64,000 bases of DNA from Archangium violaceum (lineage in GTDB: Bacteria; Myxococcota; Myxococcia; Myxococcales; Myxococcaceae): the NCBI RefSeq assembly GCF_016887565.1, contig NZ_CP069396.1, forward strand, positions 3,127,001 to 3,191,000, read 5' to 3'. Positions 21,234-64,000 of the stretch are shown here, piece by piece. A program made the position numbers and the translations under genes. The notes below the pieces were generated by a model. The model ran no database searches and had not been told where the DNA came from. It worked only from the letters and a program-made list of their open reading frames with translations. Position 1 is the first letter of the stretch. Every line of letters begins with the position of its first letter.

Positions 21234-22466
21234 ATGGCGAAGCAGAAGTCCGGGGAGATCATCGTCGGCCTCGACATCGGCACGACGAAGATCTGCGCCA
21301 TCGTCGGGGAGCTGACCGACAATGGGATCGACATCATCGGCATCGGGACGCATCCCTCGAAGGGCCTGCGCAAGGGCGTGGTGGTCAACATCGAGGCGAC
21401 GGTGTCCTCCATCCGCCGGGCGGTGGAGGAGGCCGAGCTGATGGCCGGGGCGGAGATCTCCCACGTGTACACGGGCATCGCCGGTGGACACATCAAGGGC
21501 TTCAACTCGCAGGGGATTGTGGCGGTGAAGGACAAGGAGGTGCGCGAGGCGGACATCGCGCGTGTCATCGACGCGGCGAAGGCGGTGGCGATTCCGCTGG
21601 ACCGCGAGGTGATTCACGTCCTGCCGCAGGAGTTCATCATCGACGACCAGGGCGGCATCAAGGAGCCGCTGGGGATGGCGGGGGTGCGCCTGGAGGCGAA
21701 GGTGCACATCGTGACGGGGGCGGTGTCGAGCGCGCAGAACATCGTGAAGTGCGCCAACCGCACGGGCCTGAACGTGGCGGATATTGTCCTGCAGCCGCTG
21801 GCGTCGGCCGAGGCGGTGCTGGGCGAGGACGAGAAGGAGCTGGGCGTGTGCCTGGTGGACATCGGCGGAGGGACGACGGACATCGCCATCTTCTCGGGCG
21901 GGTCGATCGTGCACACGGCGGTGATTGCGCTGGGCGGCAACAACCTGACGAGCGACATCGCGATTGGCCTGCGCACCCCGGCGCACGAGGCCGAGCGCAT
22001 CAAGCAGAAGTTCGGCTGCGCGCTGGCGTCGATGGTGAACAAGGACGAGACCATCGAGGTGCCGAGCGTGGGCGGCCGGCAGCCGCGGGTGTTGGGGCGG
22101 CAGATTCTGTGTGAGATCCTGGAGCCGCGGGTGGAGGAGATCTTCCAGCTGGTGCACCGGGAGATCCAGAAGTGCGGTTACGAGGACCTGCTGGCCTCGG
22201 GGGTGGTGATTACCGGTGGCTCGACGCTGCTGGCGGGGATGCCGGAGCTGGCCGAGGAAGTGATCGGGCTGCCGGTGCGCCGGGGCATGCCGAGGGGCAT
22301 TGGAGGGCTGGTGGACGTGGTGAAGAGCCCCATGTACGCGACGGGCGTGGGCCTGGTGGTGTACGGGGCGAAGCACCTGGACCGGCGGATGTTCCGCATC
22401 CGCGAGGAGAACGTCTACAAGAAGGTCAAGGGCCGCATGCGCGAGTGGCTTGAGGAGATCTTCTAG
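21234..22466 (+). CDS. ftsA: cell division protein FtsA
   Basis: A 410-residue actin-like ATPase that tethers FtsZ to the membrane and triggers division. Phosphate-binding motifs are GLDIGTTKICAIVG near residue 11 and DIGGGTTDIAIF near residue 208. The FtsA-specific 1C domain lies at about 85-165. The C-terminus MREWLEEIF is a short amphipathic membrane-targeting helix. The start is ATG with GGGAGG upstream. In most genomes ftsZ follows at once. Here an intrinsic terminator begins 30 bp after the stop and no ftsZ follows in the window. Confidence 0.96.
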   Translation: MAKQKSGEIIVGLDIGTTKICAIVGELTDNGIDIIGIGTHPSKGLRKGVVVNIEATVSSIRRAVEEAELMAGAEISHVYTGIAGGHIKGFNSQGIVAVKDKEVREADIARVIDAAKAVAIPLDREVIHVLPQEFIIDDQGGIKEPLGMAGVRLEAKVHIVTGAVSSAQNIVKCANRTGLNVADIVLQPLASAEAVLGEDEKELGVCLVDIGGGTTDIAIFSGGSIVHTAVIALGGNNLTSDIAIGLRTPAHEAERIKQKFGCALASMVNKDETIEVPSVGGRQPRVLGRQILCEILEPRVEEIFQLVHREIQKCGYEDLLASGVVITGGSTLLAGMPELAEEVIGLPVRRGMPRGIGGLVDVVKSPMYATGVGLVVYGAKHLDRRMFRIREENVYKKVKGRMREWLEEIF

Positions 22467-22495
22467 GCAGTTCCGTCAGTTTTTGCAGTGACCCA

Positions 22496-22534
22496 CCGGG
22501 GCCGCGTTCCTCCCAGAGCGGCCCCGGTTTTTTT
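22496..22534 (+). terminator. strong intrinsic terminator ending the dcw cluster
   Basis: A perfect 10-bp GC stem (CCGGGGCCGC at 22496-22505 with GCGGCCCCGG at 22518-22527, 12-base loop) is followed by seven T (22528-22534), 30 bp after the ftsA stop. This is the clearest terminator in the window and should separate ftsA transcription from the foreign gene downstream. Confidence 0.92.
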
Positions 22535-22619
22535 CGTGGGAGCGCATCGTCAGGTGTGCTCTGGCATAGAGAAGTGGTGTGGTGAATCGACTAGTGCTGT
22601 AGGCAAAGGGGAGAATCGC

Positions 22620-24878
22620 GTGAGTTCTGACAGCACAACAGATTGGGACGTACTTGAGCGCCAAGTCCGGACCTTGGCGTCTTTTATTTGGAATCGGCCG
22701 GCAGATAGAGAACTGGTTGCCGGAGTTGCATTGGATTGCGTGCTCAAGGTTGAGCCAGATTATTGGGTTTGTGTCGAGGTCACGAAGTCAAAAACTCTCC
22801 AGAAGCTGAGGGAAGATCTCGCTAAGTTTGGTATCGTCAGACCGGCCCTTCATGCGAAAGGCATAGCCCTCAAGTCTTTGTTTGTCACGGAATCAGATCC
22901 GTCAAACGACTTGAAGGAATCCGCAAAGGCGCTTTTTGTAGAAGCACTTTCGCGTGAGGAATTCTCAAAGAAGTTTTTCGATTTTGCTTCTTACAGGTTT
23001 GTTCGTACGGATAAACCGTTTGGTAGTGCCGTACGGCCTGATTCTGGCCAGAATGATGCCAGTACTTATGTGCCGGTTCGATATCGATCCCAAAATGGCA
23101 CCGAACTGGGAATCGACGATCTAGTGTCTCGCGTAGCCACCGGCCGCAAGGTGGTGCTTGTAGGCCAGTTCGGCACAGGAAAGAGCCGCTGCGTCAAAGA
23201 AGTTTTCTCGCGCATTGCAGAGTTTGCTGCCGGATCGCTGCAGTACCCGATTGCTGTCAATCTTAGGGACAACTGGGGTGTGCGGCGAGGGCATGAGATT
23301 ATCCGACGCCACTTCGATGACCTTGGCTTATCGGAGTTTGCTGACCCGATAATTAGGGTGCTGGATAGAACTAGTGTGGTTCTCCTGTTGGACGGCTTCG
23401 ATGAAATGGCGTCGCAGTCCTGGAGCGATGATCAAGCGCAAATCCGCAAGTTGCGGTCAGATGCTCTCGCTGGCGTTCGAGATTTGCTTGGGCGTACCAA
23501 AGGCGGAGCACTTATAACGGGAAGAGAACACTATTTTAACAGTAACGAGGAGATGATGTCTGCGTTGGGGTTGAATGCATCCAGTGCAGACATTGTGTTC
23601 TGTCGAAGTGAATTTACTGATGACGAGATGAAGGCGTTTCTCGGGGATGCAGCGAATGACATTCGCTTCCCAGAGTGGTTGCCCAAGCGCCCGCTTTTGT
23701 GTCAGACGATTGCGTCTTTCCCGCGAGACGAATTGCGATCGATTTTCGGCGACGTCGATGGTGATGCTGAATTGTGGGACAGATTGATGAACGCAATCTG
23801 TTCTCGCGAAGCTCGGATTAACCCTGTTCTTGATGCTGAAAAGATCCGCGAAATACTTAGACTGATTGCGCGAGCGACACGGAGTAAGTCTCATGATGTA
23901 GGGCCGGTTTCGATTTCCGAGATAAACGATGCTTTTGAAGAAGTGACAGGTACGCCACCGGTTGACGAGAGTGCGGTTATCCTTCAGCGTCTTCCAGGTT
24001 TGGGGCGGACGAGTTACGAATCGTCAGACCGGGAGTTCATTGATAAATACATTCTGGACGGCCTGCGCGGGATTGATGTGGTTCGTTGTCTGGACGAGCA
24101 ATCGCGCGGGATTGAGAGGGAGTCTTGGTCCAATCCTCTCCAGACGCTGGGGCAGCGAATCGTTGCTTCCGACATTCAGGGAAGCGAGAACGATCTGGAG
24201 CGAATGCACTCGTTTCTTAGACTGGCGAAACGCTGTGCACAGGCTTCCAATCGAGTTCTTGCTGGCGATATCGCTGCAAGCATTCTTCGAGCGAATGATT
24301 CCCTTGAAGAGGTAGATTACGGGGGATTTTCGCTTGAAGGAGCTTTCATCGGCGCGCTGGATTTTTCATCAGTCCTGCCTGTGAATCTGTTTATATCTGA
24401 TAGTGTCATTGAGGAAATTGTCCTCCCGGCGGCTCAGCCTAAGGGAACGCGAATCAGAAAATGCCAGATTGGCATGGTGCGCAAAGTTTCCTCCGTGGAG
24501 GGCATGCCAAATTGGATCGAGGACTCTTCGGCGGAGAAATTTGAGTCGATTAGTACGGTTTCCAAAATCAAGGAAGCAGAGCTAACACCGAAGCAGAAGG
24601 TGCTGGTAGCAATTGTTAAGAAGACGTTCTTGCAAAAAGGATCTGCCCGAAAGGAGGAGGCATTGGTGCGTGGTTTGGGGCGGGTAGTGGATTCTGGTGA
24701 AGTTTCGAAGATCCTAAATATGTTGGTTCGAGAGCAGGTGTTGGAGCGGGTTCGTGGCGATGAAGGCGCTCTGTACGTCCCTGTTCGCTCGCAAACGAGT
24801 CGGATGAAGAAAATGCTTTCAGAGCTATCTTTGTCTGCCGACCAGGTTTGGAAGTACGTTTCAGAAACGAAGAAGTAA
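22620..24878 (+). CDS. NACHT-family STAND NTPase, candidate anti-phage defence protein
   Basis: A 752-residue protein, with GTG start at 22620 and GGGGAG 7 bp upstream. The NTPase core has a Walker A VGQFGTGKS (about residues 181-189) and a NACHT-type Walker B VVLLLDGFDEM (about 253-263) with the small residue and double acidic pattern of NLR-like proteins. The N-terminal 125 residues (ALDCVLKVEPDYWVCVEVTK) look like a degenerate PD-(D/E)XK nuclease-type effector, a tentative reading. The last 80 residues (LTPKQKVLVAIVKKTF onward) look like a winged helix. Bacterial NACHT proteins are established single-gene anti-phage systems. Codon use is far more AT-rich than the neighbours (near 50% GC by eye), so the gene is probably acquired. 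It stands alone behind the dcw terminator. The trigger and effector activity are unknown. Confidence 0.85.
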   Translation: MSSDSTTDWDVLERQVRTLASFIWNRPADRELVAGVALDCVLKVEPDYWVCVEVTKSKTLQKLREDLAKFGIVRPALHAKGIALKSLFVTESDPSNDLKESAKALFVEALSREEFSKKFFDFASYRFVRTDKPFGSAVRPDSGQNDASTYVPVRYRSQNGTELGIDDLVSRVATGRKVVLVGQFGTGKSRCVKEVFSRIAEFAAGSLQYPIAVNLRDNWGVRRGHEIIRRHFDDLGLSEFADPIIRVLDRTSVVLLLDGFDEMASQSWSDDQAQIRKLRSDALAGVRDLLGRTKGGALITGREHYFNSNEEMMSALGLNASSADIVFCRSEFTDDEMKAFLGDAANDIRFPEWLPKRPLLCQTIASFPRDELRSIFGDVDGDAELWDRLMNAICSREARINPVLDAEKIREILRLIARATRSKSHDVGPVSISEINDAFEEVTGTPPVDESAVILQRLPGLGRTSYESSDREFIDKYILDGLRGIDVVRCLDEQSRGIERESWSNPLQTLGQRIVASDIQGSENDLERMHSFLRLAKRCAQASNRVLAGDIAASILRANDSLEEVDYGGFSLEGAFIGALDFSSVLPVNLFISDSVIEEIVLPAAQPKGTRIRKCQIGMVRKVSSVEGMPNWIEDSSAEKFESISTVSKIKEAELTPKQKVLVAIVKKTFLQKGSARKEEALVRGLGRVVDSGEVSKILNMLVREQVLERVRGDEGALYVPVRSQTSRMKKMLSELSLSADQVWKYVSETKK

Positions 24879-25116
24879 TTCATAAAATGTCTGCGAAGTT
24901 GCTCGGCAAGTAGAGCCTCTTGGTAGATGCGCGAGTGATGCGCTGCCAGCAGGAATTGACTAGATGCTGGCGCTTAGAGAGTGTTGAACTGGAGCGAGCA
25001 GGCACTGCGATGCGACTACAAGCGGGTTCAGAAACGGTGCCGCTCGGTGATGCAGTAGGCAAAACCTGTGTCTTCGCCATCTCACATGATGGAGGATTTC
25101 ATGGATTGGAATTGGC
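24879..25116. other. AT-richer spacer after the NACHT gene, no recognised gene
   Basis: This 238-bp stretch keeps the low GC of the NACHT gene until about 25100, then changes to host-like composition. A short open frame (24920-25168) has no recognisable motif and runs into the antisense of the DUF2381 gene, so it is not called. GTAGGCAAA at 25055-25063 also occurs at 22599-22607, just before the NACHT start, possibly marking the ends of the inserted segment. Confidence 0.4.
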
Positions 25117-26058
25117 TTACGGGAACGTCACGCCATCGAAGAGCTCGGGCATAGTGCTGCCATCCTGACTCCACAGTTTCAGGGTGAAGGTGCCGCGCGC
25201 CTGTCGCTCCGTTGCCTCCAACTCCACCACGATGCGGCCCTTCTCACCCGGAGCAATGAGATGCAGCGGCCACACGCCGAGCACCTTCAGCTCCACGTGC
25301 TTGGGCCCCAACAGCACCGCACCGGCGGGCCTCCAGGGCGTCTCGTCGTTGTTCTTCAACTCTAATTCCACGGCCAGCCGCACGACCTTCTGCCCTCCCT
25401 CCGTGCGCTCGGTGTCGGAGCGGTAGCTGCGCGCCCAGGTTGGAGTCAGGGTGTTGCCCGGACGCGCGGTGGCGTCTAAGTCGAGTGTCTTGACGGCGAC
25501 ACCCGTCTTGCCCAGTCCCTCGGCGATGAGGCCCGTGAGCCCTGCCTGCCCAGCGCACTCCGCCTGGAGGCGTGCCTTTTCCTCCTGGCATTGCCGGGCC
25601 TCCGCTCGTGCCTGCTGCTCGCCCTCCTGGTAGGAGGCGAGCGTGCGCGGTTGGCGCGTCACTTCCACCTGGCCTTCGGCCTGGGTGGGGTGCACCACCA
25701 GCCAGAAGGTGACGCTCGCGGGGGCCGCACCGTCTTGAAAATAGACTGTCACTGGCACGCGTTCCCTATCCTCCAGCGCCTTCGTGGGGACGAGTATGAG
25801 GGCCGTCTCTCCTTGCAGCACCACGCGGAACCGCTCTGGCCCGGCCAGTTCCACGCGCGCCAGCTTCGAGTCGAAGAGCAGGTTGGTGGACAGTCCCGGG
25901 TGGATGCACACCGTGAGTCGTTTGTCGGCGGCGTCTGTGGTGAGCTCAATGTGGCGCACGCCCGTCTCACAGGTGGGGAGCGGGGATTGTACGGTGGTGT
26001 CGGCGGGCACGGCGAACAGGACCCATCCCACGAGGGCGGTGGAAGACAGGGCGAACAC
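25117..26058 (-). CDS. DUF2381 family secreted protein
   Basis: A 313-residue protein from a GTG start at 26058 (other starts cannot be excluded). The N-terminus has a hydrophobic signal (LSSTALVGWVLFAVPA) and is probably exported. The first 140 residues are beta-rich (HIELTTDAADKRLTVCIHPG, TALILVPTKAL). A charged helix (EGEQQARAEARQCQEEKARL) and a C-terminal beta domain with VRLAVELELKNNDETPW follow. This layout matches DUF2381, a family known almost only from myxobacteria and often encoded beside Ser/Thr kinases. The kinase gene lies 108 bp upstream on the same strand. Its role is unknown; an extracytoplasmic partner of the kinase is an inference. Confidence 0.75.
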   Translation of the reverse strand: MFALSSTALVGWVLFAVPADTTVQSPLPTCETGVRHIELTTDAADKRLTVCIHPGLSTNLLFDSKLARVELAGPERFRVVLQGETALILVPTKALEDRERVPVTVYFQDGAAPASVTFWLVVHPTQAEGQVEVTRQPRTLASYQEGEQQARAEARQCQEEKARLQAECAGQAGLTGLIAEGLGKTGVAVKTLDLDATARPGNTLTPTWARSYRSDTERTEGGQKVVRLAVELELKNNDETPWRPAGAVLLGPKHVELKVLGVWPLHLIAPGEKGRIVVELEATERQARGTFTLKLWSQDGSTMPELFDGVTFP

Positions 26059-26166
26059 GGAGCGGGAACCCCCAGAGGACGTGGAGGAGACTGGAAACGT
26101 GGTCCTCTACCACACTTCCCACGCGGTAGTGTAGGGCGGCTCCTGGCGCCGTGTCGCTGGCTGTCC

Positions 26167-27939
26167 CTAGTCGAAGTGGTCCACCACTCGCACCTCCGCG
26201 AGGGGGCCGACCAGCATGTTCCCCGGCTCGCTGCCGGGCTGAATGGGAGTGCCGGGTCCGTCGAAGTAGTACAGGTCCATGCAGACCCGATACGTCTCCC
26301 CGCCAGGCGTGCGTGCCTCGGTGAAGCGGCCGTACACCTTCTTCTCTCCGAAGTGGAGCCGCCCGGAGAGGCGGGTTCCGTCCGGTAGCGCGAGCTGGCC
26401 GGTGGAAGTCCTCCAGTGGCCAGGGATGATGACCGGGGTGTCTTCGCGCACTTGGACGGGCCTGCCCCGCACGTCGGACCACTCGACGGACGTCCTTTCT
26501 CCAATGCGCAGGCCCAGCGTCTCGGTCATTGTCCTCACGGCGCCCGCCGGGCACTCCTGGGGTGGAGGCTCCGAGCGGACGGGTGGCACCTGCTGCTGCG
26601 CGCTGAGGCAGGCCTGCAGGGCGGCTCCCGTCAAGCCCAGACACACGTTGCGCGCGGCGGCCTGCGTGAGCTTGGGCTGCGTGTCCCGTTGGGGGCCGGT
26701 TGTCTTCTGCTGCTTCTTCACGGGGGCTGCGTCCTTTCCGGACGCCGCGGGCGAGGCGGCGGCCGCGAGGGGTGGCTCCACAGGCGGCGGAGTCGCGGCC
26801 CGAGCAGACTCCGGCGGCGACTCCGGGGGCGCCACTTCCTGGCCAGCGCTGGCCTTCCGCGTTGGCTGCTCGGCGGGCGACGTGATGGGTGATGGGAGGG
26901 TGGCCACCTCGCGCCCGCCCCTCCACTGCCCCACCAGCCACCCGCCGCCCAGCACCAGCCCCACCCCCATGCTCGCCCAGGCCGTCGCACGGAGCACTCG
27001 CGTCCGCCTCCTGCCGGCCACTTTCACTCCGCCGTGCAGTGGCACCTTCCAGGACTCGTCCGCCTGGGTCCTCAGCGCCTCCAATGCCGCGCACAGCTCC
27101 ACGGCACCCGGGTAGCGCGCCTCGGGCGTCTTCTCCAGAAGCCGCAGACACACTTCTTCCACCGCCCGGGGTACGCGCGGGTTGACGAGGTGCGGCGGCA
27201 GCGGCGCCTGGTGCAGCACGGCCTCCACGTCCACGCCCGCGCGCTCGCCTGGCAGGAAGGGGTCTCTCCCCGTCAGCAGCCGGTAGAAGACGACTCCCAG
27301 CGCGTACAGGTCGTCTCCCACTCCGGCCCGGTAGTGCGCGCCCGGCACGCCCTTGTTCTCCCGGCCGAAGCGCCACGCCTCGGGGCTGCGGTACAGCGGC
27401 GTGTCCGGGGGAAACAGTCCCGCGGTAATGGTGGGCGCCCCGGCGTAGTAGCTCACCCCGAAGTCCACCAGCACCGCCTGCCCGTCACCGCGGCGCACCA
27501 GGATGTTGGCTTCCTTCACGTCCCGGTGCACCACCTTGGCCGCGTGTACCACCGCCAGGGCCCGTGCCACCTCCAGCACCCTGTCCACCACCTGGCCTGT
27601 GTCCACGGCGTGCTCTCGTGCCCAGACGTCCAGCGTCACCCCGTCCACCAGTTCCAGCTTCAGGTAGACGAAGCGGGGGTCCTTGGCGGGCCAGCTGCCC
27701 GCGCCCAGCACCCGCGCCAGGTTGGGGTGGTGCAGGTGCAGGCGCGAGCCGATGAGGGCCTCGCGCCAGGCTCTCTCCTCGCCTCTCTCCACCGGCACCA
27801 TCTTGAGGGCGGCGCGGCGTCCCTGGGGGCTACGCACCTGGTACACGGTGCCGAAGCCGCCCGCGCCCAGCACGGCCTCCACCACGTCACCCGCGATGAG
27901 TGTGCCGGGCGGCAGTGGCGGCATGTCGAACGCATTCAT
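26167..27939 (-). CDS. transmembrane Ser/Thr protein kinase with extracytoplasmic domain
   Basis: A 590-residue protein. Residues 15-290 are a Hanks-type kinase: glycine loop LGAGGFGTVYQV, catalytic Lys in AALKMVPV, HRDVKEANILV with catalytic Asp, DFGVSYYAG, and PEAWRFG in place of APE. A membrane helix (about 325-345) leads to a Pro/Ala-rich linker and a cysteine-containing C-terminal domain (about 455-590, CPAGAVRTMTETLGLRIGER onward) outside the cytoplasm. It may couple an envelope signal to phosphorylation. It lies downstream of a toxin/immunity pair and upstream of DUF2381, all on the same strand. The N-terminal 255 residues are duplicated, truncated, at 35667-36445. Confidence 0.9.
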   Translation of the reverse strand: MNAFDMPPLPPGTLIAGDVVEAVLGAGGFGTVYQVRSPQGRRAALKMVPVERGEERAWREALIGSRLHLHHPNLARVLGAGSWPAKDPRFVYLKLELVDGVTLDVWAREHAVDTGQVVDRVLEVARALAVVHAAKVVHRDVKEANILVRRGDGQAVLVDFGVSYYAGAPTITAGLFPPDTPLYRSPEAWRFGRENKGVPGAHYRAGVGDDLYALGVVFYRLLTGRDPFLPGERAGVDVEAVLHQAPLPPHLVNPRVPRAVEEVCLRLLEKTPEARYPGAVELCAALEALRTQADESWKVPLHGGVKVAGRRRTRVLRATAWASMGVGLVLGGGWLVGQWRGGREVATLPSPITSPAEQPTRKASAGQEVAPPESPPESARAATPPPVEPPLAAAASPAASGKDAAPVKKQQKTTGPQRDTQPKLTQAAARNVCLGLTGAALQACLSAQQQVPPVRSEPPPQECPAGAVRTMTETLGLRIGERTSVEWSDVRGRPVQVREDTPVIIPGHWRTSTGQLALPDGTRLSGRLHFGEKKVYGRFTEARTPGGETYRVCMDLYYFDGPGTPIQPGSEPGNMLVGPLAEVRVVDHFD

Positions 27940-57164: not shown

Positions 57165-60100
57165 ATGAGCAGGAATGGCAGATGGACCTTGGTCCTCGTC
57201 GCCGCGAGCACGTTGCTCGGCGCCGTGGGCTGTGGTGGAGCACGTGAGCCGGAGGCCGCACCCGAGGAGCCGCGGGCCCTGGCACAGGCATTGAGCGGGG
57301 GTCCGGACTTCTTCATCCAGCAGGTGAGCGCACCGCCGAGCGTGTTGGGCGGCGGCTCGCTGCGGGTGGGCGTCACGGTGTGCAACCGGGGCGGTGCGGT
57401 TGGCAACCCGGGGATGGTGGAGCTCGTCCTGTCGAAGGACGCGATCATCACCGCGGGGCAGGATATGCCCATCGGGACGGTCTCGTTGGCCACCCTGGTG
57501 CCGGGCGAGTGCGCCGCGCGCGAGGTGCTGGTCACCGCCAATGCGGCCACGGGCTCCTGGTTCGTGGGGGCGATCGCCGACCGGGCAAAGCAGACAGCGG
57601 AGCTCTCCGAGACCAACAACACGCTGGCCGGTGGTCAGGTGGGGGTTGGCTCCCTGCCGGACTTCGTCATCCAGGAGGTGCGTGGTGTGCGCGCCAGCGC
57701 GCAGCCCGGCCAGTCCATGCAGGTGAGTGTCGTGGTGTGCAACCAGGGCACCAAGCCCGACAGCACGACCTTGACCCTGATGCTGTCTCCGGACGAGGCC
57801 ATCACGACGACCGACCAGTCCATCAGCGGCAGCGTGTCCATTCCGACGATGAATCCAGGGGTGTGCGGCGTGGTGAGCATCACTGGCACCGTCCCATCGG
57901 TTCCCCCGGGAGCCTGGTACCTGGGCGCCTACGCGGACCGGAGCAATGCGAGGCCGGAGCTCATCGAGACCAACAACGGGCGCGGCACGCTCCTGGGCGT
58001 GGGCCTCCGGCCCGACTTCGTCGTCACCGCGATGACGGAGGTTCCCCAGGTGGTGGCGCCGGATGCGTCCTTCACCACGTTCGTCACGGTGTGCAACCCA
58101 GGCACCGCCAGTGGCAGCGCCCTGGTGGAGCTGTTCCTCTCCAAGGACGCGGTCCTCTCCAGGGACCAGGATGTTCACGTGGGCTCGTTCCCCACGAGCA
58201 CGCTGGCTCCCGGTGCGTGCACTTTCATGCCGGCCAAGGTCATCGCCACCGTGCCCGCGGCCTCGCAGGGAGAGCTCTACCTGGGGGCCCTCGTCGACCC
58301 CTCCAACTCCGTTCCGGAGCTCATCGAGAGCAACAACACCTTCACGGCCGGCACGCTGGCCGTGGGAGACAGGCCGGACTTCGTCGTCGCCGCGTTGACG
58401 GGGCCGGTCTCCGCGACACAGGGCGACCCCCTGGGGGCGACCGTGACGGTCTGCAACCAGGGCAGGGTGGGAGGCTCCACGGAGGTGGAGCTCTACCTGT
58501 CCAAGGACGCGGTCATCCTCCCTCCGGCCCCAGTGGCCGGTGATGGGGACGTCTTCGTCGCCCGGGCTTTCGTGGAGCCGCTGAATCCGGGCCAGTGCCG
58601 GACGCTCGCGGTGGCCGGCCCGGCGTCCTTCCCCTACTCGTTCCCGGATGGTGAGTACCGCCTGGAGGCCATCGTCGATCCGCGCAACACCGCGCCGGAG
58701 CTCTTTGACGGCAACAACTCCCGGGCCGGTGACCTCCTGGCGGTGGGGACGGGGCCGGACTTCGTCATCCGCGAGGTGAGCGCGCCCGCGAGCGTGAGCT
58801 CGGGGGCGCCCTTGTCCGTCTCCCTCACGGTGTGCAACCAGGGCACCGTGCCGGGCAGCTCTTCCGTGAGGCTGGTGCTGTCTCCCGACGCGCGGCTCTC
58901 CCCTCCCGGGTCCGCGATGGAGGCGGGGGACCAGTCCCCGCAGGCCCTGCCAACGGGCACCCTGCCGCCGGGCCAGTGCGTCCCGCTGGTGACATCGTTC
59001 CCCGCCAGTTTCCCCTCGGGACCGTGGTACCTCGGCGCCCTCATCGACCCGAACAACGACGCGTGGGAGCTCGTCGAGAGCAACAACGTGTCCATCGGTG
59101 GGCTCGTGGGCGTGGGGACCCGTCCGGACTTCGCCGTCACGAAGGTGGTGGGGCCGGCGAGCGCGCGGCCGGGTGAACCCCTCTCCGCGTCCGTCACGGT
59201 GTGCAACCAGGGCACCGCGAATGCCGAAACAGAGGTGAGGCTCCTGCTGTCGCCCGACGCGGTGCTCGACCCGCTGTCCTGGCAGCTGGTCACGGTGGTG
59301 GAGAGCGCCACGGGTGTGCTCGCGCCGGGGGCCTGCAAGGAATTCCCGATGAATGGCACCGCCCCCGCGCTCGAGGGCCCGTTCTACCTGGCGGCGATCG
59401 CGGATCCGCTCGGTCTCTGGCCGGAGTTCATCGAGAGCAACAACTCCCGCGTGGGAGGCCCGCTGGGGCTCGGCAATCAGCCGGACCTCGTCGTCACGGA
59501 GGTGACGGGGCCGGAGCGCGTGCGGCCGGACGAGACCTTCACCGCGTCCATCACCGTGTGCAACCAGGGGACGGTGGGGGTGAGCACGGACGTGGCGCTC
59601 CTCCTGTCCAGCAACGAGGCCGTCACCCAGCCGGGGACGCCGGGACAGGATGGGGACGTGGAGCTCGGGGGGGTCTCGGGGCCCCTGGTGATGCCAGGGG
59701 CGTGCATCAAGGTGCCAGTGCAGGGCACCTACCTCGCCAGCAGCGGCCTTCCGCCAGGGGAGTACCACCTGAGCGCCATCGTCGACCCGGGCCAGAAGCT
59801 GGTGGAGTTCCTCGAGAGCAACAACGCGTTCGCGGGGAACCGGGTGGGGGTGGGGGACGCACCGGACTTCATCGTCAAGACCGTGACGGGAACCCAGCAA
59901 GCGAGGCCGGGCGACTCCTTCCCGGCCTCCGTCACGGTGTGCAATCAGGGCACCCTGGCCGGTGACGCGGAGGTCGCGCTGGTGCTGTCGTCCGACCCGG
60001 TCATCACCGGACCCCGGTCTCCCGGTGGGTCGGATGTCTCCGTGGGCCGGGTGTCCCCTGGCTACCTCCCTCCCGGGCAGTGCACGACGCAGCGGCTGAA

Positions 60101-63100
60101 TGCGTTCATCGAGTCCTCCCTGCCCGAGGGCTCCTGGTACCTGGGCGCCGTCGTGGATCCGCTCGACGTCCGGCGTGAGCTCTTCGAGCGCAACAACACG
60201 CGCGCGGGAGACGTGATGGGGATTGGCGACCGGCCGGACCTCGTCGTCACGAAGGTGGTGGGGCCCGCGAGCGCGCGGCCGTACACGACCTTCACGGTGT
60301 CCGCCACGGTGTGCAATCAGGGCACCCAGCCGGGTAGCGCCGACGTGGGCTTCCTCCTCTCGCAGGACGAGATCCTGACCGTGTCGAGCTCCTCGGCCGA
60401 CCTGCCGATCAGCAGCGCCTCCGTGGACGTGCTCCTGCCGGGGGCGTGCGCCTCGGTGTCGGCGCAGGCCTACGCTCCGATCGCCGGTGTGGCCTGGCAC
60501 CTGGGGGCCGTCGTGGATCCGAACAACTCCCTGCTGGAGCTGTCCGAGAACAACAACGCGCGCGTGGGGGACCTGATGGGGATCGGCGACGGGCCGGACT
60601 TCATCGTCACGAAGGTGACGGGCCCGGTGAACGCGAGGCCGGGGGAGACCGTCACGCTGTCCGCCACGGTGTGCAATCAGGGCACCACGAGCGGCAGCAC
60701 GGACGTGATGCTGCTGCTGGACACCTCGCCGAACCCGCCGCAAGGGGGGGGCCTCCCGCTCGGGACCGTGTCCGTGGGGATGCTGGAGGCGGGGAAGTGC
60801 ACCACGGTGTCCCTGCGGACCAGCTTCCCCGAGGGCTCCTGGTACCTGGGCGCGAAGAGCAATCCGTTTCTCTCCCAGGCGGAGCTCGTCGAGAGCAACA
60901 ACGTCCACATGAGGGGCCCCCTGGGCGTGGGGACCGGGCCGGACTTCGTCATCCAGGAGGTGACCGCGCCGTCGAGCATGATACCGGGCCACTCCTTCTC
61001 CGTGTCCGCCACGGTGTGCAACCAGGGCTTCGCGGAGGGCCTCACGGACGTGGGCTTCTTGGTGTCGTCCGACACGGTGCTCACCGGCCCCGGGGAGACG
61101 AACGAGGGGGGAGACATCTTCCTCGGTTCGTCCTCCCAGGTCTTCCTGGCGGCGGGACAGTGCGCCCCGGTGTCGCTGTCCGGCTGGTTGCCCTACGCGC
61201 TCTACGACTTCCCGGGGACGTATTACCTGGGAGCCGTCGCGGACGTGTTCAAGCAGGAGCTCGAGCTCGTCGAGCTCAACAACGCCTCCGTCTCGGCCCC
61301 GATGGGCGTGGGCTTCGACCCGGACTTCGTCGTCCAGGAGGTGACGGGTCCGGCGACCGTGCGCTCGGGGGAGTCGTTCCGCGTGACCGCCACGGTGTGC
61401 AACCAGGGGACCTGGGACGGCTTCACGGACGTGATGTTCGTGCTGTCGTCCGATCCGGACATCTCCCTGCCCTCGGGGTCTCCGTCGCAGGGGGGAGACG
61501 TGTTCCTCGGGAATGTGTCGCTGGGCGTCCTGCAACCGGGACAGTGCGTTCCCGTGGAGTGGGCGGGCGGCAGCTCGCTCCAGGGGCCTTGGTACCTGGG
61601 CGCCATCGTCGACCCGGGCAACTTCCAGCGGGAGCTCATCGAGAGCAACAACGCACGAGCGGGCGTCCGGATGGGGTTCGGTGATGGGCCGGACTTCGTC
61701 GTCACCCGGGTGACGGGACCGGGGAACGTGAAGCCGGGTGACGCCTTCACCGCGTCCGCCACGGTGTGCAACCAGGGCAACACGAGCGGCGCCACGGACG
61801 TGGCCGTCCTCCTATCCCGTGACGAGGTCATCCTTCCGCCGGGCACGCCGCTCGCGGAGTGGGACGTGCTGCTCGGGAGCGCGGGCGTGGGCACGCTGGA
61901 GCCGGGGCAGTGCGCCACGGTGCCGGTGTCCGCGCAGGCTCCCTCCTCGGCCGAGGGGCTCTGGTATCTGGGAGCCATCGTCGACCCGGCCAATGGTCAG
62001 CAGGAAGTGCTCGAGCACAACAACACGTCCTCGGGCAGCCCGCTGGGCATCGGCGATCGGCCGGACTTCTTCGTCACGGCGGTGAAGGGGCCCGCGAGCC
62101 GAGTACCGGGAGTCCTCTTCACCGCGTCCGCCACGGTGTGCAACCAGGGCACCGTGAGTGGTTCCACGGACGTGGCCCTCCTGCTCTCCCCGGATGCGGT
62201 CATCACCCTGCCGGGGCAGCAGGGTGGGGGAGACACCCTCGTCGGGAGCGCGGTCGTGGGTCCGCTGGAGCCGGGGCAGTGCGCTCCGGTGCCGATGTCG
62301 GCCCAGGCCCCCTCCCTGCCCGATGGGGCGTACCACCTGGGCGCCATCGCGGACCCGGCCAACGGTGTGCAGGAGTTCGTCGAGAGCAACAACGCGCACG
62401 CGGGTGACCTGATGGGGGTGGGTCATGCGCCGGACCTCATCGTCACGGCGGTGACGGGGCCGGTGAGCGTGAGGACGAGTGATTCCTTCACCGCGTCCGT
62501 CACGGTGTGCAACCAGGGCACCGAGTGGGGTCATCCGCGCGTGGCTGTCTTCGTGTCTCCGGACCCGGTCATCACCGGACAGGGGCCGTCGTCCGATGAC
62601 ATCCCCGTGGGCACCTACTACGTCGGGAGCCTGGGACCCGAGCACTGCGACACGGTGCAGGTGCAGGCCATCCTCGACGCCATGCCCGAGGGCACGTACA
62701 CGCTGGGCGCGGTGGTGGACCCGGACAACGAGGCGTTGGAGTTCATCGAGAGCAACAACGCGCACGCGGGCAGTCCGGTGAGGATCGGCAACGGGCCGGA
62801 CCTCGTCATCCAATCGGTGACGGGACCGGCGAGCGTGGAGCTGGGGGCGTCCTTCCAGGCACTCGTCACGGTGTGCAACCAGGGGACCGAGGCATCCAGC
62901 ACGACGGTTGTGCTGCTCGCGCTGTCAGCGGACGAGGTCATCGCCCCTCCGGGTCAGGGTGACTTCTGGCCTGGCAATACGTCCGTCGGTCCGTTGCCTG
63001 GAGGCCAGTGCGTCACGGTGCCGGTGTCCGCGCAGGCCTCCGTCGCCCACGGGCTGAGCGAGGGCGTGTATCACCTGGGGGCCTTCGTCGACCCGTATGA

Positions 63101-64000
63101 ACAGCAACCGGAGCTCTCCGAGAGCAACAACGCGCGCGCGGGAGGACTGTTCGCCATCGGCGTCGGGACGGACTTCGTCGTCACGGCGGTGACGGCGCCG
63201 ACGAGCGTGGCGCTGTGGTCGAACCTCGCCGCGTCCGTCACGGTGTGCAACCAGGGCACCCGGTACGGGAACGCGAGCGTGAACCTCGTCCTGTCGAAGG
63301 ACACCTCCATCGACTGGCCGGGCTCGCCCGGAAGTGACGACCTCATCCTCGGCGGCGCGTCCGCCTATCTGTCTCCCGGCGCGTGCGACACGCTGTCGCT
63401 GACGTCCTATGTCTCGGTGCCCGAGGGCATGTACCACGTGGGGACCCTCCTCAGCGCTGGCGGCTGGGAGCAGGAGCTCATCACGAGCAACGACTCGTAC
63501 CGGAGCGGCCGGGTGGGCGTTGGGTACCAGCCGGACCTCGTCATCGAGACCGTGTCCCTCCCGGCGCGCTTGCAGCCGGGTGAGTCGCTCAGCGGGTCCG
63601 CGACCGTGTGCAACCGGGGCGTCCAGGACACCTCCTCGGACGTGGTGCTCGTGCTCTTCAACGACGCGTCGCCCACCGCGCCCTATGCGCCGTACGGGGA
63701 CGTGTGGCTCGCCAGCGGGTACACCGGGCTGCTGCCCGCGGGGCAGTGCGTCCCGGTGCAGGTGTCCGGGAGCGTGCCCTACCTGTCGGGGGCCTGGCGC
63801 ATGGGTGCCTTCGTGGACCCGGACGGCGACACGCCGGAGTTCTTCGAAGACAACAACGTGTTCGTGGGCGGCGAGGTGAGCATGGGGACGGGAGTGGACT
63901 TCGCCGTCACCGCGGTGACGGGGCCGGCGAGCGTCCGGCCGGGGTTCTCCTTCGATGCGTCCATCACCGTGTGCAACCAGGGGGACGAGGCGGCCAGCAC
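57165..64000 (+). CDS. giant CARDB-repeat lipoprotein, 3' end outside window
   Basis: The frame stays open from ATG 57165 (GGGGGATG upstream) to the window end, at least 2278 residues. The signal ends LLGAVGCGG (lipobox Cys at residue 23). After a short linker, at least 18 complete repeats of 115-127 residues follow. Each has PDF(V/I)V.xVTGP at its start, VTVCNQGT near residue 30 and a conserved ESNN near residue 95. This is the CARDB (cell adhesion related domain in bacteria) pattern of Ig-like adhesion domains. Each CNQG carries one Cys, and a second Cys (GQC) lies about 60 residues on, so intradomain disulfides are plausible. It is probably a long surface fibre for adhesion or cell-cell contact. 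Confidence 0.85.
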   Translation, partial: MSRNGRWTLVLVAASTLLGAVGCGGAREPEAAPEEPRALAQALSGGPDFFIQQVSAPPSVLGGGSLRVGVTVCNRGGAVGNPGMVELVLSKDAIITAGQDMPIGTVSLATLVPGECAAREVLVTANAATGSWFVGAIADRAKQTAELSETNNTLAGGQVGVGSLPDFVIQEVRGVRASAQPGQSMQVSVVVCNQGTKPDSTTLTLMLSPDEAITTTDQSISGSVSIPTMNPGVCGVVSITGTVPSVPPGAWYLGAYADRSNARPELIETNNGRGTLLGVGLRPDFVVTAMTEVPQVVAPDASFTTFVTVCNPGTASGSALVELFLSKDAVLSRDQDVHVGSFPTSTLAPGACTFMPAKVIATVPAASQGELYLGALVDPSNSVPELIESNNTFTAGTLAVGDRPDFVVAALTGPVSATQGDPLGATVTVCNQGRVGGSTEVELYLSKDAVILPPAPVAGDGDVFVARAFVEPLNPGQCRTLAVAGPASFPYSFPDGEYRLEAIVDPRNTAPELFDGNNSRAGDLLAVGTGPDFVIREVSAPASVSSGAPLSVSLTVCNQGTVPGSSSVRLVLSPDARLSPPGSAMEAGDQSPQALPTGTLPPGQCVPLVTSFPASFPSGPWYLGALIDPNNDAWELVESNNVSIGGLVGVGTRPDFAVTKVVGPASARPGEPLSASVTVCNQGTANAETEVRLLLSPDAVLDPLSWQLVTVVESATGVLAPGACKEFPMNGTAPALEGPFYLAAIADPLGLWPEFIESNNSRVGGPLGLGNQPDLVVTEVTGPERVRPDETFTASITVCNQGTVGVSTDVALLLSSNEAVTQPGTPGQDGDVELGGVSGPLVMPGACIKVPVQGTYLASSGLPPGEYHLSAIVDPGQKLVEFLESNNAFAGNRVGVGDAPDFIVKTVTGTQQARPGDSFPASVTVCNQGTLAGDAEVALVLSSDPVITGPRSPGGSDVSVGRVSPGYLPPGQCTTQRLNAFIESSLPEGSWYLGAVVDPLDVRRELFERNNTRAGDVMGIGDRPDLVVTKVVGPASARPYTTFTVSATVCNQGTQPGSADVGFLLSQDEILTVSSSSADLPISSASVDVLLPGACASVSAQAYAPIAGVAWHLGAVVDPNNSLLELSENNNARVGDLMGIGDGPDFIVTKVTGPVNARPGETVTLSATVCNQGTTSGSTDVMLLLDTSPNPPQGGGLPLGTVSVGMLEAGKCTTVSLRTSFPEGSWYLGAKSNPFLSQAELVESNNVHMRGPLGVGTGPDFVIQEVTAPSSMIPGHSFSVSATVCNQGFAEGLTDVGFLVSSDTVLTGPGETNEGGDIFLGSSSQVFLAAGQCAPVSLSGWLPYALYDFPGTYYLGAVADVFKQELELVELNNASVSAPMGVGFDPDFVVQEVTGPATVRSGESFRVTATVCNQGTWDGFTDVMFVLSSDPDISLPSGSPSQGGDVFLGNVSLGVLQPGQCVPVEWAGGSSLQGPWYLGAIVDPGNFQRELIESNNARAGVRMGFGDGPDFVVTRVTGPGNVKPGDAFTASATVCNQGNTSGATDVAVLLSRDEVILPPGTPLAEWDVLLGSAGVGTLEPGQCATVPVSAQAPSSAEGLWYLGAIVDPANGQQEVLEHNNTSSGSPLGIGDRPDFFVTAVKGPASRVPGVLFTASATVCNQGTVSGSTDVALLLSPDAVITLPGQQGGGDTLVGSAVVGPLEPGQCAPVPMSAQAPSLPDGAYHLGAIADPANGVQEFVESNNAHAGDLMGVGHAPDLIVTAVTGPVSVRTSDSFTASVTVCNQGTEWGHPRVAVFVSPDPVITGQGPSSDDIPVGTYYVGSLGPEHCDTVQVQAILDAMPEGTYTLGAVVDPDNEALEFIESNNAHAGSPVRIGNGPDLVIQSVTGPASVELGASFQALVTVCNQGTEASSTTVVLLALSADEVIAPPGQGDFWPGNTSVGPLPGGQCVTVPVSAQASVAHGLSEGVYHLGAFVDPYEQQPELSESNNARAGGLFAIGVGTDFVVTAVTAPTSVALWSNLAASVTVCNQGTRYGNASVNLVLSKDTSIDWPGSPGSDDLILGGASAYLSPGACDTLSLTSYVSVPEGMYHVGTLLSAGGWEQELITSNDSYRSGRVGVGYQPDLVIETVSLPARLQPGESLSGSATVCNRGVQDTSSDVVLVLFNDASPTAPYAPYGDVWLASGYTGLLPAGQCVPVQVSGSVPYLSGAWRMGAFVDPDGDTPEFFEDNNVFVGGEVSMGTGVDFAVTAVTGPASVRPGFSFDASITVCNQGDEAAS
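57303..64000 (+). repeat. array of 18 complete plus one partial CARDB-coding repeats
   Basis: Units start (PDF codon) near 57303, 57657, 58011, 58374, 58755, 59124, 59481, 59862, 60234, 60594, 60939, 61320, 61689, 62061, 62430, 62796, 63168, 63531 and 63894. Unit lengths are 345-381 bp. Units differ by many substitutions and short indels but keep VTVCN.G and ESNN blocks, so the array is old and under selection, not a recent expansion. Confidence 0.85.

Follow-up and report, generated by a model that had tools for sequence, protein, structure and literature searches.

In the 64-kb window analysed here (the whole stretch of DNA, from a complete 13.2-Mb genome of the genus Archangium), one gene probably constitutes by itself an acquired, phage-triggered anti-phage system of the bNACHT/STAND type, working through a nuclease effector as bNACHT25 and bNACHT32 do. 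The gene, which is intact and encodes 752 amino acids, occupies 22620..24878 (+), and its product joins a PD-(D/E)XK nuclease-fold domain to a NACHT module and a C-terminal region that is a candidate sensor. The initial annotation had proposed an acquired gene and a candidate anti-phage system. Its sequence relationships make an anti-phage role very likely, because phages and a plasmid carry relatives, and DISARM and other defence genes adjoin further ones. Horizontal acquisition is indicated by sequence comparison, since the gene is AT-rich, is missing at this position in sibling genomes, where other contents are found, and has relatives patchily spread over phyla.

The open reading frame that contains the gene spans 22488-24878 (+) and has an alternative in-frame GTG at 22488, at the ftsA terminator. 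The GTG at 22620, from which the gene had been called at the outset, is the better start, as a probable ribosome-binding site (GGGGAG, 22608..22613, +) lies 6 nt 5' of it and the alignments of homologues begin there. A chance reading frame is ruled out by 52 full-length homologues, which align across the entire protein at 24-43% identity. The AT-rich codon use first remarked upon is borne out by a GC content of 50.9%, where the window median is 68%, and by a GC3 of 52.5%, where the neighbouring mur and fts genes have about 93-97%; no other 2.26-kb stretch in the window is as low in GC, and the gene is the clearest compositional outlier there.

Domain architecture of the protein

The three sequence elements originally picked out, the Walker A motif VGQFGTGKS, the Walker B motif LLLDGFDE and the CVEVTK core, are all present in the translation. 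Modelling gives good support to the assignment as a NACHT-family NTPase with HD1 and WHD, because a Foldseek search of the PDB with the AlphaFold2 model of the full protein (pLDDT 92, from a 53-sequence alignment) returns NLRC4 (5.9e-10), NOD2 (6.2e-9) and NLRP3 (9.5e-9) at the top, together with NLRP9 and NAIP5. By this comparison the NACHT module, residues 161-495 (23100..24104, +), has the NLR-like NBD-HD1-WHD fold. Whole-chain TM-scores are low (0.2-0.35), which is to be expected of a multi-domain protein with ends unlike those of its matches. Of 53 family members, 50 match Pfam NACHT, the best at 2.5e-9, and the window protein itself scores 23.8 (4.5e-5), just under the family gathering cut-off of 26.7. 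A best match to a non-NACHT AAA/STAND regulator, which had been named as an outcome that would tell against the assignment, was looked for in the fold search and is absent, the best matches being NLR NACHT proteins. Within the module, Walker A (residues 181-189; 23160..23186, +) retains K188 and S189 in all 59 proteins compared, and Walker B (residues 255-262; 23382..23405, +) has the extended DGxDE form, the combination expected of the STAND NACHT clade. Walker B is invariant in the relatives; as LDGFDE was the pattern with which homologues were searched for, this is not independent evidence, and we dropped it as a sign of constraint by itself.

The initial annotation could match the N-terminal domain to no effector that it could name, and it suggested that the killing mechanism might be new, neither of which survives a structure search. 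Modelled alone (pLDDT 92), residues 1-135 run in the order helix-strand-strand-strand-helix-strand, the alpha-beta-beta-beta-alpha-beta core of the PD-(D/E)XK superfamily, and Foldseek retrieves mostly PD-(D/E)XK nucleases for them (probability about 0.9-1.0, E from 1e-3). The matches include Cdn1, Can2, Card1, BspD6I, AF1548, EndoMS, MspJI and arenavirus endonucleases, the first six having a probability of about 1.0 and the first four being the nearest solved structures, and they are distant, at 10-22% identity. The domain (residues 6-135; 22635..23024, +) is, on the strength of the model, a PD-(D/E)XK nuclease fold, from which cleavage is predicted only. The absence of a nuclease-like N-terminus, also looked for as a point against the proposal, is thus not the case, and the effector is of a type already known, characterised in bNACHT25 and bNACHT32, rather than a new one.

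Conservation among 59 proteins singles out E13 (56/59), D39 (57/59), E53 (57/59), a threonine or serine at position 55 (59/59) and K62 (59/59), and it counts as independent evidence because none of these residues was used in finding the homologues. In the model the second strand carries D39 and the third carries E53, which falls within the CVEVTK core (residues 51-56), while K62 is placed where the following helix begins; E13, D39, E53, T55 and K62 are the predicted active site. Both acidic residues of the D...(D/E)-x-K motif are conserved as D39 and E53, and the position of the E-x-K lysine is taken by T/S55. Since the usual lysine is T or S here, we infer, by analogy, that the invariant K62 on the following helix replaces it; some nucleases, arenavirus endonucleases for example, carry their catalytic lysine on a helix.

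Beyond the NACHT module, the AlphaFold2 secondary structure gives a helical part (residues 496-558) and a beta-coil part (residues 559-645), together 24105..24554 (+), whose mean column entropies of 2.89 and 2.71 are the highest in the protein. Because it is the most variable part, this region is a candidate sensor. It is followed by a winged-helix-like domain (residues 646-722; 24555..24785, +) that is about as strongly conserved as the NACHT core (entropy 2.14 vs 2.03), with K668, G674, R677 and G685 among its conserved residues and a GntR-type Pfam match in 3 of 53 homologues. The order is the tripartite one of effector, NACHT and sensor, in which effector and NACHT are assigned by fold and the sensor by position and variability only.

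Relatives and characterised systems

Full-length relatives are rare, occurring in 4 of the 147 genomes of the class, and in the tree they span nine phylum-level groups and form two deep subfamilies. In that tree the window protein clusters with proteins encoded in Proteobacteria and Bacteroidota, on a viral contig and on a plasmid; the other Archangium copy is 31% identical to it and belongs to a different deep subfamily. Full-length relatives were found at six IMG/VR viral-contig loci, and for two of these (L108 and L110) a search for DNA-similar phage records gave none, so that those contigs are viral by the IMG/VR call alone. The firm phage case is the complete Pseudomonas phage Haddon, in which the relative (CDS0030, L118:11977-14277, annotated as hypothetical) is placed between early genes and the lysis and tail genes and which also has repressor and excisionase genes. 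An Erwinia plasmid carries a relative beside an integrase; E. coli genomes searched by DNA with this copy gave no match. One relative adjoins the DISARM gene drmB (3.2e-52), and the nearest-neighbour proteins of relatives match PADLOC models for Septu PtuA, HerA, MADS, AriA, GajA and type IIG restriction-modification, a listing drawn up without a matched control set and not a measured enrichment. Consistent location of homologues in core, non-mobile contexts would have weakened the original proposal, and it was not found when the contexts of the relatives were looked at. Immediately beside the window gene itself are genes for a DUF2381 protein and a Ser/Thr kinase, neither of them known to act in defence.

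No catalogued defence family provides an identity for the protein. Searched against PADLOC and NCBIfam, it matched no defence family and gave weak NTPase-type matches only, and a sequence search of solved structures returned P-loop noise only; relatives give weak DS8_antiphage and mad8 matches. The DS-8 anti-phage protein (NF053861) has a NACHT domain that is essential for defence and also a metallophosphatase domain (PMC13092281). Its profile, which has a cut-off of 790 bits, matches nine relatives weakly (14-20 bits) and in the NTPase region only, and does not match the window protein, which accordingly falls outside DS-8 as defined by a score above 790 bits and a metallophosphatase domain.

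The characterised systems nearest in architecture are bNACHT25 (WP_001702659.1) and bNACHT32 (WP_057688292) of bNACHT clade 6, which have a PD-(D/E)XK effector, whose D48A mutants lose both defence and DNA degradation on infection, and which carry an NCH1 domain (PMC12169576). The window protein is like them, in a comparison by architecture only, in being encoded by a single gene and in having an N-terminal PD-(D/E)XK effector, a central NACHT and a candidate C-terminal sensor, and it is by analogy with their phage-triggered defence by DNA degradation that we propose the same for it. It is unlike them in its C-terminus of beta-coil and winged helix and in its predicted E-x-T...K active site. 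Membership of clade 6 would call for the NCH1 C-terminal helical domain, placement with bNACHT25/32 and DnaJ-dependent activation; a Pfam scan of 53 members of the present family gave no match named NCH1, the presence of an NCH1 model in that library being unconfirmed. The members of bNACHT clade 14 (bNACHT02 and bNACHT12, with a SNaCT domain) are likewise single-gene NACHT anti-phage proteins but lack a readily discernible effector domain (PMC12169576), whereas the window protein has its nuclease-fold effector. Outside the bNACHT proteins, the CRISPR ancillary nucleases Card1, Can2 and Cdn1 share the nuclease domain fold, being the best solved matches to residues 1-135, and are switched by cyclic oligoadenylate, whereas the switch of the window protein would be its NACHT module. 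The animal NLRs NLRC4, NOD2 and NLRP3, the top PDB matches, have the same NBD-HD1-WHD arrangement; the window protein has no leucine-rich repeats, CARD or pyrin domain, and carries a nuclease-fold effector in their place.

Proposed mode of action and alternatives

In the resting cell the protein would be kept inactive, presumably bound to ADP, until its variable helical and beta C-terminal region detects something that the phage makes or a host process that the phage upsets. ATP exchange on the NACHT module would then lead to assembly of an oligomer in which the N-terminal PD-(D/E)XK domains are brought together, and these would cut DNA, whether of the host, the phage or both, ending the infection, in most cases with the loss of the cell. 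Oligomerisation, activation of the nuclease with cleavage, and cell suicide are all attributed to the window protein by analogy, and we are aware of no close relative that has been challenged with phage.

Two alternatives concern the nature of the effector. It is conceivable, if unlikely, that it acts on RNA, or on single-stranded nucleic acid by nicking or degrading it, instead of cutting double-stranded DNA. Its nearest folds are those of BspD6I, a nickase, and of three CRISPR ancillary nucleases, Cdn1, Can2 and Card1, which act on DNA and partly on RNA, and the RNA endonucleases of arenaviruses match too; such distant fold matches, however, give no substrate specificity, and bNACHT25 and bNACHT32, the nearest characterised proteins in architecture, degrade DNA (PMC12169576). 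We consider it quite improbable that the domain is catalytically dead and instead binds nucleic acid or acts as an adaptor under the control of oligomerisation, in the manner of the 'NACHT-associated inactive restriction endonuclease', with defence exerted through a partner or through binding. When the N-terminal domains of homologues were scanned, the Pfam family with the largest number of matches was indeed NA-iREase1 (PF22722), yet these were weak and came from 6 of 49 domains (best E 0.0096), and the E-x-K lysine is T or S in every homologue. Active nuclease families nevertheless score better in individual members, with weak matches to Mrr_cat (3.6e-4) and Tox-REase-3 (3.7e-4) in a scan that also returned Card1_endonuc, and no partner gene adjoins the window gene. 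Moreover, conservation at E13, D39, E53 and K62 greatly exceeds the average for the domain across two deeply split subfamilies, which would be unlikely for a dead site, and the helix-borne K62 can supply the lysine as happens in the structurally matching arenavirus endonucleases.

Two further alternatives concern what the gene is for. That it is mainly an addiction or superinfection-exclusion module of mobile elements, with host defence as a by-product, would fit the occurrence of relatives in IMG/VR viral contigs, on a plasmid and in phage Haddon with its repressor and excisionase genes. The window copy, however, stands alone in a chromosome with no adjacent antitoxin-like partner, and this explanation, which we think has a small chance of being correct, differs from an anti-phage system in the beneficiary more than in the mechanism. 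A STAND transcription regulator of ordinary metabolism, using the C-terminal winged helix as its DNA-binding output, could account for the conservation of that domain and for the few GntR-type matches, but the nuclease-fold N-terminus, the carriage by phages and a plasmid, the defence-gene neighbours and the patchy distribution leave it hardly credible.

Read as a nuclease-effector bNACHT system, the protein brings a broad family, which the searched Pfam, NCBIfam and PADLOC libraries do not include, into the company of the bacterial NLR-related immune proteins, and places one of these in predatory multicellular myxobacteria. D39, E53 and K62 can be named as catalytic candidates alongside the candidate sensor region, and the copy in phage Haddon makes the family testable in a laboratory phage-host pair. 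It is tempting to go further and to speculate that this is an unnamed nuclease-NACHT immune family, with two deep subfamilies in many phyla and phage-borne members, that has an atypical E-x-T...K site and a beta-coil and winged-helix sensor whose trigger is unlike those of known bNACHT proteins, and that the site behind ftsA truly serves as a hotspot at which single-gene immune proteins are exchanged; this fuller reading is tentative, and we would sooner expect it to fail in some part than to hold as a whole.

The variable site behind ftsA

The gene had been placed directly behind the terminator of the dcw division cluster. It does lie directly behind the terminator of ftsA, but this is the ftsA end only, as ftsZ comes only after another 42 kb, 0.5 kb outside the window. 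The ftsA gene (21234..22466, +; 410 aa; Pfam FtsA 6.8e-53) is a conserved upstream neighbour, about 100% identical in five other Archangium genomes, and its intrinsic terminator (22498..22534, +), a stem of GGGGCCGC/GCGGCCCC followed by T7 (RNA fold z = -3.06), forms the left edge of the variable site, about 85 bp before the start of the NACHT gene. The stem and T run are kept in all six Archangium genomes. When the sequence from ftsA onward was compared with the five others, the 94-98% DNA identity ended in every case within about 20 bp past the terminator.

The nearest sibling (G005) shows a clean replacement. Aligned by blastn from ftsA, homology covers positions 1-1306 and resumes from 3857 (window 25090), and these and boundary alignments define a 2.55-kb segment (22540..25089) that holds the NACHT gene alone, in place of 6.4 kb in the sibling. 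The segment of the sibling encodes a single 2009-aa protein (L123:9133-15162; 52% GC), a STAND-type ATPase (AAA_16, NPHP3_N) with a weak match to Avs1b (4.5e-8) and, in a sequence search of solved structures, no relative. Avs proteins have the nuclease-STAND-sensor logic in common with the window protein, which, unlike them, has no Avs match, a NACHT-type NTPase and a length of 752 aa. At the same site G002 has a gene for a 313-aa PIN_4-domain protein (49% GC; L120:12824-13765) right behind the ftsA terminator, and G001 and G003 have AHH-family nuclease genes first (L119:16698-18604 and L121:1212-2708), followed in G001 by an Imm11-type immunity gene with which the AHH gene likely forms a toxin-immunity pair. 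The edges of the NACHT segment were checked for direct and inverted repeats, and only short, chance-like ones were found, with no integration signature. Judged on these six genomes, the ftsA 3' flank is probably a hotspot for conflict genes in Archangium, at which closely related strains carry different ones and which could be mined for further systems.

The variable region as a whole extends between two essential division genes, from window position 22540 to beyond 64000 (G000:C1:3149540-3191496). The ftsA-ftsZ interval is 42 kb here and about 13 kb in G002, 20 kb in G001 and 25 kb in G003, and in a genome of another genus (G032) it contains a single gene. The idea that arrival of the NACHT gene split ftsA from ftsZ was dropped, the two being separated in the other myxobacterial genomes compared as well. 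The genes for the DUF2381 protein and the Ser/Thr protein kinase (25117-27939, -) adjoin the NACHT segment, and from 25090 to about 28050 the window and G005 share their sequence at about 90% identity. Towards its far end the window has tandem 369-bp repeats (61594-62523; 2.5 copies, 75% match), which sit inside a self-similar stretch of about 57300-64000, a longer repeated region that is also present in G001.
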